64,000 nt of DNA from Salipaludibacillus daqingensis. GTDB taxonomy: Bacteria; Bacillota; Bacilli; Bacillales; Salisediminibacteriaceae. The position numbers were made by a program, and so were the translations under genes. The notes beneath the pieces are model-generated. The model worked only from the letters and a program-made list of their open reading frames with translations, was not told where the DNA came from and made no database searches. The stretch is taken from NCBI RefSeq assembly GCF_029891575.1, contig NZ_JARZHF010000009.1:1-64000 (forward strand), written 5' to 3'. Of this stretch, positions 45,766-52,767 are shown in pieces. Each line of letters opens with the position of its first letter. Position 1 is the first letter of the stretch.

Positions 45766-47892
45766 CTATTGTTTATTCTTCTTCCCTTTAATTAATCGAA
45801 GGCTGTTAAACGTCACAAGAAGTGTCGCCCCCATATCTGCAATGATTGCAATCCATAACGTCAATAACCCAAAAGGGACAAGAATTAACGCTAGAGCTTT
45901 TAACCCAAGAGCGAAGGCAATATTCTGTTTGATAATCGTTAAAGACTTGCGACTAAGCTCGATTAAGTAAGGCAACTTATGAAGTTCATCTCCCATGAGA
46001 ACAACATCCGCCGTTTCAAGGGCTGTATCTGTACCTGCCCCTCCCATGGCAATCCCTAAATGAGCGCGTGCCAAGGCAGGTGCATCATTCATCCCATCGC
46101 CTACCATAGCTACTCGTTGCCCGCTTTTTTTGAATTGCTCAATTTTTTCGAGCTTTTGTTTCGGAAGAAGTTCTGATTCTACTCTTGTTACACCAGCTTC
46201 ATGACCAATAGCTTCGGCTGTGTAACGTTGGTCCCCTGTTAGCATAACGACCTCATTTATGCCTAAATTCATTAGCTCGCTAATGGCACCTTTCGCTTCC
46301 GGACGAACTTCATCTCTTAAAGCGATCAAACCTAATAATTCCACTTCATTCCCAACAATAACTACGGTCTTCCCTTGCTTCTGTAATTCATTTACATGAC
46401 GTTGATCTGTTTCAGAAAAAATAAATGGAAACTCTTTTCTCACATATGAAGGACTCGCGACAAAAAAACGTTGTTCATGAAATATGCCAGCCATCCCTTT
46501 CCCTGTTAATGACGTCACATCTGTAAATGGGATTTCTTGTTTATCAAATCCATTTGTAACTGCATAGTCTACTAACGTTTTTGCTAAAGGATGTGTCGAG
46601 TATTTTTCTAATCCATATACGAACTGAAACAATACTTCTTCCTCACTATTTGATTTTGTTTTCACATCCGTAACCGTTAAGACACCTCTTGTTAACGTTC
46701 CTGTTTTATCAAAGGCGAGCGTTTTTATACGTCCCGCTTCTTCTAAATGCACACCGCCCTTAATCAAAATCCCGTGTTTCGCACTGTTTCCGATAGCTGT
46801 CACAATCGCAACGGGGGTAGAGATAACTAAGGCACACGGACAACCAACAACAAGCGTTGCTAGACCAAGATAAATCCACTGTTCCCAAGGTGCCCCCATA
46901 AGTAATGGAGGACCGATCATGACAAAGAAAGCTAATAGCATGATAGCAGGTGTATAGTATGCAGCAAAACGATCAATAAACTGCTGAGCTGGTGCCTTCT
47001 CTGCCTGAGCTTCTTCTACAAGATGAATAATTGTAGCAAGTGTTGTATCTTGGACGTGTTTTGTCACTCTTATAGAAAGAAGCCCTTCTTCATTAAGTGT
47101 CCCTGCGAACACATCGTCTGATAAATTTTTAGTAATTGGAACACTTTCTCCTGTAATCGCAGCTTGATTTACAGAAGATGATCCACTAATGACCTCACCG
47201 TCTAATGGTATTTTTTCACCAGGTCGTATAAAGATGGTTTCTCCAATTTCGACTTCTTCCACAGGCACCGTTTTCTCCACTCCATCACGGTAAACAGACG
47301 CCTGTTTCGGACCTGTTTCAACAAGGGAGCGAATGGAGCGACGTGCTCTATCCATCGAAAAAGATTCAAGTGCTTCACTGATAGCAAAGAGAACAACGAC
47401 TAATGCCCCTTCTCCCCATTCCCCAATGATCGCAGCTCCAATGATGGCAATCGTCATTAGTGTTTTCATATCGAATATGAGTTGAGATAAATTCTTTAAC
47501 CCTTGCCAGAACATCGAATATCCGCCGATTAACATAGCTACTAAAAATAAACTAACTGTCAACAGGTGACCATCACCATAAAAAAGGTGACCTAACCAAC
47601 CTGCAGTAACGAATATGAATGAAATAATAACTTGTATCCACTTCCACTGTTTCCAAAAAGGTTGTTTGTCTTCTGATTCTGCATTCTCTGAACGTACTTT
47701 TAAGTTTTCAAAAGAACCAGCTTTTTCAATTTCATCAATGGAGACGTCTCCATCTATCGTTATTTTTTCAGCTGTGAAGTTCACTTTAGCATTCGTTACT
47801 CCTGGTAAATCGTTCACATTCCGCTCGAACCGAGCAGCGCAGTTACTTCAGGTAAACCCCTCAATATGAAAAACCTTTTCCTGATTACTCAT
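45766..47892 (-). CDS. cadA: Cd2+/Zn2+-exporting P1B-type ATPase with in-frame TGA at metal-site Cys
   Basis: The ATG at 47892, with GAGG nine bases upstream and overlapping the cadC end (ATGAGTAA), opens a 708-codon frame interrupted only by TGA at codon 15. The reading is VFHIEGFT-TGA-SNCAARFERNVNDLPGV, so the first Cys of the HMA motif GFTCxNC is TGA. The rest is intact: CPCALVIS channel motif, FDKTGTLT phosphorylation Asp, THPLA and GDGMNDAPAL, and helix-8 Asp in IADMGAT, all typical of CadA. A GTG at 47817 could restart a 683-residue ATPase without the N-terminal metal domain. It may be selenocysteine read, internally started, or a fresh mutation. Confidence 0.85.
47814..47843 (-). promoter_or_regulatory. 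Candidate SECIS-like hairpin after cadA TGA
   Basis: On the minus strand CTGCTCG and CGAGCGG pair (7 bp with one U-G) around loop GTT at 47825-47841. The loop begins 17 bases after the TGA and starts with G, fitting the known bacterial pattern for selenocysteine hairpins. The stem contains two CGG codons, unlike the AT-rich surroundings. It could be chance. Confidence 0.35.
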
Positions 47893-48250
47893 AATCTTTT
47901 TCCTCATACTGATGTTCAAAGGCTATCGTAATTAATTCTTTCACATGATGATCGTCAAGATGATAGAATGCGAGTTTTCCCTCTTTTCTATATTGGGCCA
48001 AGCCTTGTTTTTTAAGTGTTCGTAAATGGTGAGAAGCGGTCGCTGTTGACGATCCAATCACATTGGCAACATCGCACACGCATAATTCCCTTTCTAAAGT
48101 AAGAGCATAAGCTATTTTCAGTCTTGTTGGATCCGCTAAAACTTTGAAAATCATCGTCGTATCTTTTATCATATTATCGTTTATTTGTTCCTTTACCGAT
48201 GTTACTTTCTTCTCGTCGAAACAAAACACATCACACGTATCTTTGCTCAT
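47885..48250 (-). CDS. cadC: CadC, ArsR-family metal-sensing repressor
   Basis: A 121-residue ArsR/SmtB winged-helix protein. Cys6, Cys10 (CDVFC) and Cys57, Cys59 (ELCVCDVA) correspond to the Cd/Pb/Zn-sensing cysteines of Staphylococcus CadC (7, 11, 58, 60); the HTH is GSSTATASHHLRTLKKQG. Metal binding releases it from the cad operator. The ATG at 48250 has GAGGAGGG six bases upstream. Its end overlaps the start of cadA, so the two are coupled. Confidence 0.93.
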   Translation of the reverse strand: MSKDTCDVFCFDEKKVTSVKEQINDNMIKDTTMIFKVLADPTRLKIAYALTLERELCVCDVANVIGSSTATASHHLRTLKKQGLAQYRKEGKLAFYHLDDHHVKELITIAFEHQYEEKDYE

Positions 48251-48278
48251 AACAATCCCTCCTCTACAAATACAAATC

Positions 48279-48298
48279 ATTCAAATGTCTGTTTGAAT
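48279..48298. promoter_or_regulatory. CadC operator, promoter-proximal
   Basis: ATTCAAA and TTTGAAT flank six bases, like the cad operator of Staphylococcus plasmids. It overlaps the expected transcription start. Confidence 0.7.
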
Positions 48299-50883: not shown

Positions 50884-52767
50884 ATGATGAAAAAATATGA
50901 ATATGAAACAAAAAAACCAAATATTGTTTTTTATATTTCTGCTCCCTTAGTTGCCATGTTCGTTCTTTGGGGATTTTTTGGCCCTGCTAACTTACAAGCA
51001 GTTTCAGAGTCAGCATTAGGTTTTACTCTTAACACTTTTGGCTGGTTTTACATGCTTTCCACAGCCATTTTTATTGCTTTTGTTCTCTTTTTAGCTATAA
51101 GTCCATTTGGTAAACTAAAACTTGGAAAAGCTGATGAAAAACCAGAATATAAATTTTTCACCTGGTTAGGAATGTTATTTTCTGCCGGAATTGGGGTAGG
51201 TTTTGTGTTCTGGGGTGTTGCAGAACCCGTACTCTATTTCTTTGATCCACATCCAGATTACGTGGGTGCATCAGAAGGTGTTCGAGCCGCTGCCGGGCTT
51301 CGATACGGGGTTTTCCATTGGGCACTTCACCCATGGGCCATCTTCTCGTTAGTCGCTCTTACATTAGCGTACGTTCAATTTCGTAAAGATCAACCAGCAT
51401 TAATTAGCTCGGCTTTCCAACCTATTTTAGGTGACAAAGCCCACGGTCCATTCGGTAAAGGCATTGACACGTTAGCCGTATTAGCTACATCAACAGGGGT
51501 AGCGACAACATTTGGTCTTAGTGCATTGCAGATCAGTGGTGGACTTTCATACTTAATTGATTGGATACCAAACACTCCCACAACACAGTTAACAATTATA
51601 GCGATCGTTACGGTACTCTTTATTTTCTCCGCTGCAACAGGAGTGAATAAGGGAATCAAAATTTTAAGTACGATTAATTTAACGATTGCATCAATACTAT
51701 TGGTTTTTGTTATTATTATGGGTCCAACATTATTTATCGCCCAAAACTTTGTTACGACGATTGGTGGATACATCACCAATGTGACTCAAATGAGTTTAGA
51801 TTTAAATCCATTTGGTGATGGTGAATGGCTAGGTAATAATACAATCTTCTTTTGGGCTTGGCATATATCTTGGGCACCTTTCATGGGTATTTTCATAGCA
51901 AGAATATCGAGAGGAAGAACAATTCGTGAATTTGTTGCTGGTGTTCTAGTTGTACCTTCACTCCTTGCTGCACTTTGGTTCACAGCATTTGGGGGAACTG
52001 CGCTAGATATGATTTTAAGTGGAAATGATGAGATAGGCGATCTCGTCATGAATAATGTCGAAGTTGCTTTATTCGCTACTTTAGGAAATTTACCACTTAG
52101 TTTTATCATGAGTGTTCTTGCCGTCATCTTGATTGTCATTTTCTTTATCACCTCAGCTGACTCCGCCTCCTATGTTTTAGGAGCAATGACTAGTGCTGGT
52201 AGTTTAGCTCCAAAATTATCTATTAAAGTTATTTGGGGATTCCTTATTGCAGGAACAGCAAGTGTTCTACTAGTAAGTGGTGGACTCGAAGGGTTGCAAA
52301 CCGCCTCCATTGTTGCTGCCTTGCCGTTTGCACTGATCATGATTGTGATGCTCTTCTCCTTATTAATAATGATGGGAAAAGATCTAAAGGCAGACCGGTT
52401 AAAGGTTACGAAACGAGAACGTAAACGAGTGAAAGACGAAGTTTACGGCGGAATGAAAGAAAACATTTATGATGACTTCAAAGATGAAGCTTACGATGAA
52501 ATCAAAGATGAAGTGTATGAACAAGTGAAAGACGAAGTTTATGACGACTTTAAAGATGAAGCATACGACGACATTAAAGACAAAGTGTATGAACAAGTCA
52601 AAGATGAAGTGTATGATGACATCAAAAAAGAAGTTTATGAAGAATTCAAAGAGAAAATATACGATGACTTACGTGAGGACATCGGTGATCAATTGAACGG
52701 AGAATTAGAAACACCTAATGAAGACCGTTCCGAAGAAGAACAAAACGACAATGATAAAAAACGATAA
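50884..52767 (+). CDS. BCCT family betaine transporter with octapeptide-repeat tail
   Basis: A 627-residue BCCT transporter with 12 membrane helices. SAGIGVGFVFWGVAEP (helix 3) and FFWAWHISWAPFMGIFIARISRGRTIREF (helix 8 signature) define the family; OpuD of B. subtilis is the nearest type. After the last helix come 11 tandem octapeptides (517-604) of the form K-D/E-x-V/A/I-Y-D/E-x-F/I/V, then a charged end. In BetP the C-terminal tail is the osmosensor, so this tail may tune activity. Start is ATG-ATG after an unusual hairpin. Substrate is probably betaine but not proven. Confidence 0.9.
   Translation: MMKKYEYETKKPNIVFYISAPLVAMFVLWGFFGPANLQAVSESALGFTLNTFGWFYMLSTAIFIAFVLFLAISPFGKLKLGKADEKPEYKFFTWLGMLFSAGIGVGFVFWGVAEPVLYFFDPHPDYVGASEGVRAAAGLRYGVFHWALHPWAIFSLVALTLAYVQFRKDQPALISSAFQPILGDKAHGPFGKGIDTLAVLATSTGVATTFGLSALQISGGLSYLIDWIPNTPTTQLTIIAIVTVLFIFSAATGVNKGIKILSTINLTIASILLVFVIIMGPTLFIAQNFVTTIGGYITNVTQMSLDLNPFGDGEWLGNNTIFFWAWHISWAPFMGIFIARISRGRTIREFVAGVLVVPSLLAALWFTAFGGTALDMILSGNDEIGDLVMNNVEVALFATLGNLPLSFIMSVLAVILIVIFFITSADSASYVLGAMTSAGSLAPKLSIKVIWGFLIAGTASVLLVSGGLEGLQTASIVAALPFALIMIVMLFSLLIMMGKDLKADRLKVTKRERKRVKDEVYGGMKENIYDDFKDEAYDEIKDEVYEQVKDEVYDDFKDEAYDDIKDKVYEQVKDEVYDDIKKEVYEEFKEKIYDDLREDIGDQLNGELETPNEDRSEEEQNDNDKKR
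52432..52695 (+). repeat. Eleven 24-bp repeats coding the BCCT tail
   Basis: Consecutive 24-base units such as AAAGACGAAGTTTACGG and AAAGATGAAGTGTATGA encode KDEVYDDF-like octapeptides. Units alternate between F/I-ending and V-ending forms, so larger duplications of two or three units are likely. Unit number may vary between strains. Confidence 0.9.

Follow-up and report, generated by a model that had tools for sequence, protein, structure and literature searches.

The cadA gene of Salipaludibacillus daqingensis is interrupted by a TGA codon where members of its family carry a metal-binding cysteine, which raises the question of whether this codon is read as selenocysteine (Sec), serves as a switch or a selenium sensor, or is simple damage. 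The window analysed was the whole stretch of 64,000 nucleotides at positions 1 to 64,000 of contig NZ_JARZHF010000009.1; its genome is designated G000 and is 99.99% complete by the genome record. The features concerned, all on the minus strand, are as follows.

45766..47892, minus strand: cadA, Cd/Zn/Pb-type P1B ATPase, 708 residues with TGA taken as Sec (residue 15); from translation and TIGR/Pfam profiles
47725..47874, minus strand: heavy-metal-associated (HMA) domain with UxxC replacing CxxC; Pfam PF00403, residues 7-56, 3e-12
47821..47837, minus strand: predicted SECIS hairpin, 7 bp, loop GUU at 47830-47828; from folding, the bSECIS model, a recoding test and covariation
47848..47850, minus strand: TGA codon, predicted selenocysteine of the UxxC metal-binding motif; from the reading frame and TGA in 30 of 64 homologues
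47885..48280, minus strand: cadC-like ArsR/SmtB repressor; NF033788, 1.7e-26

An in-frame TGA at the metal-binding motif of CadA

Read from the ATG at 47892, which is preceded by GAGG, the frame runs MSNQEKVFHIEGFT-TGA-SNCAARFERN... and encodes 708 residues. The TGA at 47850-47848 is the sole internal stop of this frame and stands at the first Cys of the CxxC motif, which then reads GFTUSNC, as the first-pass annotation, made from the letters alone, had recognised. That annotation also described an undamaged ATPase of 683 codons; the absence of any other internal stop agrees with the former, whereas 683 is the length counted from GTG 47817, the start picked by a plain ORF finder, by which the metal-binding motif is lost.

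CadA matched TIGR01525 (6.2e-186, 619.5 bits, cut-off 346.25) and TIGR01512 (4.3e-161, 537 bits, cut-off 313.5), narrowly exceeded the cut-off of the Cu-type profile TIGR01511 (409.4 versus 397), and scored below the cut-offs of NF008262 and NF033775 in the profile search. Pfam assigned it the domains HMA, E1-E2_ATPase and Hydrolase. The CPC membrane motif, DKTGT, the N-terminal HMA domain and the TIGR01512 match place it among the Cd/Zn/Pb P1B ATPases (CadA/ZntA), and, as a TIGR01525/COG2217-type ATPase with UxxC, it also fits the UxxC selenoprotein family. The cadC-like gene overlaps cadA, the last 8 bases of the former covering the start of the latter (ATGAGTAA). Judged from the family and from this neighbouring gene, the substrates of CadA would be of the Cd, Zn and Pb type. 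Elsewhere in the window, 11 tRNA genes are clustered at 213-1370, and a BCCT-like transporter, recognised by eye at 50884-52767, carries a long charged C-terminal repeat (KDEVYDDFKDEAYDDIKDKVYEQ...).

A hairpin downstream of the TGA codon

According to the available text of PMC13188914 (Fig. 2 legend), the bSECIS model comprises a loop of 3-9 nt with G within its first two positions, a stem of 4-16 bp, a folding energy of -7.5 kcal/mol or lower and a UGA-to-loop distance of 16-37 nt; the same source mentions that some bSECIS elements lie beyond the model. These published criteria were implemented in our own script. As far as the model is given in that text, the cadA hairpin is like the elements it describes, which are best characterised in the E. 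coli formate dehydrogenases: CUGCUCG-GUU-CGAGCGG (47837-47821, -8.4 kcal/mol) has a 7-bp stem and a 3-nt loop with G first, and its loop lies 17 nt from the UGA. The GC-rich stem and the G-initiated loop had been correctly described before; the 17 bases then placed ahead of the hairpin are in fact the distance from UGA to loop, and the spacer between UGA and stem is 10 nt.

The 21 codons following the TGA were then recoded synonymously 4000 times with the protein fixed and with codon draws following the usage of the window's long open frames. All seven stem pairs were retained in 3 of the 4000 recodings, and any hairpin within the bSECIS model arose in 14; the cadA hairpin exceeds chance expectation. 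CGG, the rarest Arg codon in the window's stop-free frames of at least 250 codons (29/578), occurs twice in the stem region, in line with the earlier remark that these codons were out of character. The whole 61-nt stretch after the TGA folded no better than its shuffles (z -0.01), and an Rfam search of the site returned just two matches, with E near 5 and both under the gathering scores.

Selenocysteine machinery in the genome

The search for selA, selB, selC and selD that the first-pass annotation had proposed detected all four genes in G000, grouped within one 19-kb stretch, with selD assigned by eye from its GUGCK motif. The tRNA-Sec (selC) has the anticodon TCA, and selB is present as a single copy. 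Between selD and selB lies a gene for a LysR-type-like regulator, also recognised by eye (L011:9980-10903); a selenium-specific LysR regulator is mentioned in the available part of PMC9312934.

SelD itself contains TGA (AGUGCK), and two of the 18 matches to the formate dehydrogenase model in G000 have an in-frame TGA, read NRT-U-HAPS. After these codons, stems could be drawn of 7 bp with loop GUC and a 12-nt spacer in one fdhA, 7 bp with loop GUU and a 12-nt spacer in the other, and 8 bp with loop GUU and a 25-nt spacer in selD. The best fold included the drawn hairpin or its core for both fdhA genes and for cadA; in selD, a longer stem won in the optimal fold of 57 nt, which lacked the drawn hairpin, and one fdhA offered another 8-bp candidate stem at 4 nt. 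Because selB occurs once and four TGA genes possess such stems, a single SelB would face four similar candidate hairpins.

TGA and Cys codons among CadA homologues

The codon was examined in a sample of 60 genomes, G000 included, each of which has a match to the CadA protein; the 64 best-scoring homologues, chosen by protein similarity alone, were read. TGA occupied the site in 30 of these 64 homologues, reaching down to 46% identity, and TGT or TGC occupied it in the other 34; the hairpin was kept along with the TGA, so that the proposed comparison with relatives favours a selenoprotein. One TGA homologue is a distant ATPase with 46% identity, the motif GLHUAGCAAQ and a hairpin placed as in the window's gene (L185, G032:C23:81200-84500), by which Sec would extend past the close CadA group.

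Counted by genome over the loci read, TGA was found in 28 of the 60, and 27 of these 28 possess selB and tRNA-Sec. Among the 43 genomes in which both were over the cut-off, 27 have TGA, 13 have only Cys forms and 3 had no locus read, while the 17 genomes without machinery over the cut-off comprise 1 with TGA, 15 with only Cys and 1 with no locus read (Fisher p 4.7e-5 for the association of TGA with machinery, kinship being ignored). The exception, G034, in which neither selB nor tRNA-Sec was found, is 76% complete with 6% contamination. Within the genus group of eight genomes, TGA was present in G000, G002, G003 and G007, and only Cys forms in G001, G004, G005 and G006, of which G004 has the machinery and the other three do not. 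Since 13 Sec-positive genomes, G004 among them, show only Cys among the loci read, Sec appears dispensable at this position. A FastTree tree of 153 rows, from a sample enriched for TGA, required no fewer than 13 Sec/Cys changes.

Predicted Sec-CadA genes in public genomes and plasmids

A scan of genome_contigs with the pattern G-x-x-TGA-xx-C-A-xx-F-E-x-N, third codon positions being free within each residue, returned at least 119 matching stretches. Of the 119 matches listed, 99 could be aligned as ATPases that have TGA in this position; another 19 share the same HMA context and mostly end at the stretch edge, and one (L132) is a chance match. Because 99 align and 19 share the context, 118 of the 119 listed matches were taken as cadA. 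Record titles assign 100 of the 119 to Bacillaceae, the others being Paenibacillaceae, Fictibacillaceae, Desulfofundulus, Pelotomaculum and Actinobacteria bins. The scan partly overlaps the 60-genome sample (L078 and G007, for example). Eleven aligned TGA genes have additional stops, every one at the C terminus. One record titled Chryseobacterium (L070) has a cadA that clusters with Mesobacillus in the tree, and is likely a mislabelled assembly.

Among plasmid copies, tblastn gave 329 records, all below 60% identity, with 56% as the highest, and megablast with a gene of the commoner hairpin class (class B, below) gave 6 plasmid records. Two plasmid genes (H31 and H34) were read, and both have TGT at the site; an ArsR/SmtB gene adjoins cadA in both plasmids opened. 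One record whose title names plasmid pBO1 of Cytobacillus oceanisediminis 2691 contains a class-B TGA cadA ending at the stretch edge (L135), which would represent a Sec-dependent resistance gene on a plasmid. Mesobacillus selenatarsenatis SF-1, a strain linked by name to selenate and arsenate, has a class-B TGA cadA as well (L127).

Three hairpin placements after the same UGA

The 129 TGA rows (30 from the 60-genome sample and 99 from the pattern scan) yielded 124 unique 66-nt stretches. These were assigned to classes by the same stems whose pairs were later counted, a procedure that biases the proportion of paired cells upwards, and the shuffle tests of stem pairing ignore kinship. In class A, the window's class (n=17), 118 of 119 stem cells are paired; at the closing position 10 sequences have GC, 6 have AT and 1 has AC, one other pair changes once from GC to TA, and with 7 double changes none of 2000 shuffles was as well paired. 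Two hairpins occur in class B (n=102), one with its loop about 21 nt and one with its loop about 40 nt from the UGA; in these, 553 of 612 and 510 of 510 cells are paired, with 12 and 7 double changes, respectively, and 0 of 2000 shuffles as good for each. In class C, represented by five sequences only, the loop lies at 47-48 nt, and 203 of 2000 shuffles were as good.

Synonymous identity in class A was 0.86 over codons 4-10 versus 0.50 over codons 21-59, and in class B 0.81 over codons 6-17 versus 0.48 further on, whereas 24 Cys homologues gave 0.47 over codons 4-10, 0.41 over codons 6-17 and 0.47 further on. The codons under the hairpin are thus synonymously frozen in TGA genes, but not in Cys homologues. 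A hairpin within the bSECIS model was detected in 16 of 17 class-A, 6 of 102 class-B, 0 of 5 class-C and 0 of 24 Cys sequences; when the distance was allowed up to 55 nt, these counts became 16 of 17, 79 of 102, 4 of 5 and 1 of 24. Measured against the 16-37 nt in the available text of the model, the loops at about 40 nt in class B (102 unique) and at 47-48 nt in class C (5) lie farther out. The role of the hairpin at about 40 nt is suggested by its conservation, and the 21-nt hairpin of class B is an alternative SECIS candidate.

In the lone Cys homologue that passed at up to 55 nt, the loop lies at 40 nt; this sequence is presumably L161 (G010:C1:206900-210100), a TGT cadA in which all six class-B stem pairs are intact and whose genome is Sec-positive. 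Such intact pairs are as expected of a recent Sec/Cys change, and the hairpin of L161 is likely a SECIS fossil or forerunner. Among rows that extended far enough upstream, a strict regular expression recognised a cadC-like gene there in at least 13 of 18 (class A), 27 of 95 (class B) and 10 of 32 (Cys forms), all three counts being lower bounds.

Proposed reading of the UGA and its alternatives

Machinery genes, a conserved codon, a selected and covarying hairpin and an intact ATPase are all present at the level of sequence, and on these grounds the cadA TGA is almost certainly read as selenocysteine by SelB and the hairpin, to give a full-length UxxC P1B ATPase. In the proposed course, cadA would be translated as the second gene of a cadC-cadA pair with overlapping ends; ribosomes would complete 14 residues of CadA and then reach the UGA, where the hairpin 10 nt downstream, bound by SelB, would deliver Sec-tRNA-Sec for insertion. 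Translation would then continue to a 708-residue P1B ATPase, whose N-terminal HMA domain would carry UxxC in place of CxxC. When selenium is lacking, most ribosomes would halt after 14 residues, and the pump would thus depend on selenium. A selenolate is softer and more acidic as a metal ligand than a thiolate, and could act in this way on Cd, Pb, Zn or Hg. The likeliest role of Sec in the pump is therefore such a ligand, with selenium dependence being either a consequence or the purpose.

If the latter were the whole purpose, the UGA would be read mainly as a putative selenium sensor limiting CadA synthesis, and selenium would bring no gain in metal handling. Cys forms in Sec-positive relatives, which imply that both forms are kept, and the repeated Sec/Cys steps on the TGA-enriched tree are consistent with such a sensor, but in the aligned genes Sec takes the place of the motif's first metal ligand, and we regard a pure sensor as unlikely, though worth keeping in mind. 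Far less probable is a switch that yields, as the working protein, a shortened CadA initiated at GTG 47817 and devoid of the metal-binding motif, as the first-pass annotation had also suggested. The frame from this codon is indeed open for 683 codons; however, just 7 of 20 class-A rows have GTG there, the others having GTA, GTT or CTT; the codon lacks an evident ribosome site ahead of it, unlike ATG 47892 with its GAGG, and a short form would have no use for a covarying hairpin upstream. Least credible of all is an ordinary Cys CadA in which a nonsense mutation arose recently or a base was miscalled, formerly taken as the simplest reading: a single base separates TGC or TGT from TGA and half of the genus group has only Cys forms, but this was refuted by TGA at the same codon in similarity-chosen homologues down to 46% identity, nearly all of them in Sec-positive genomes and with a covarying hairpin, with at least 99 further TGA genes coming from a pattern that itself requires TGA.

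Relation to known selenoproteins

A UxxC cation-transporting ATPase has been predicted as a selenoprotein before, according to the available parts of PMC13188914, PMC9312934, PMC2398784 and PMC7435645, and in 25 organisms with 32 genes according to that of PMC5029168; the text at hand of PMC13188914 adds that more work is required on what exactly these proteins do in metal detoxification. CadA resembles the cation-transporting ATPase E1-E2 selenoprotein family (listed example ABB15669.1) at the level of protein family and UxxC. The accessible parts of these accounts name no Bacillaceae member, cadC neighbour or SECIS details, whereas the present set comprises at least 118 genes, with 100 of the 119 listed records from Bacillaceae, in three hairpin placements. 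Cys-form CadA of plasmids and other bacteria belongs to the same ATPase family, with up to 56% identity, and differs in the TGT of the two plasmid copies and in the bSECIS model, which fits none of the 24 genomic Cys homologues.

Our literature search found no account of a Bacillaceae Sec-CadA. As a kind of protein, Sec-CadA had been predicted previously, and many relatives of Bacillus prove to have it; within the reach of that search, the novel points are how far it extends across Bacillaceae and that a loop at about 40 nt from the UGA is present in most of the genes. On balance, we favour the view that Sec-CadA is a selenoprotein of metal resistance found widely in Bacillaceae, in which hairpins at three distances serve one and the same UGA; the commonest placement, at about 40 nt, would then represent a kind of SECIS that the published bacterial model does not cover. 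Any search limited to 37 nt would overlook these hairpins, so that genes of this type may be under-counted in Bacilli. Most selenoproteins of known function are oxidoreductases, as stated in the available part of PMC2398784; here, a metal ligand of a resistance pump would be Sec, and the export of metal would be coupled to the supply of selenium. The reach of SelB could be tested on class-A and class-B genes that occur naturally as a pair, as in G026, a genome with a single selB match that holds Sec-CadA genes of both classes (L020 and L162).
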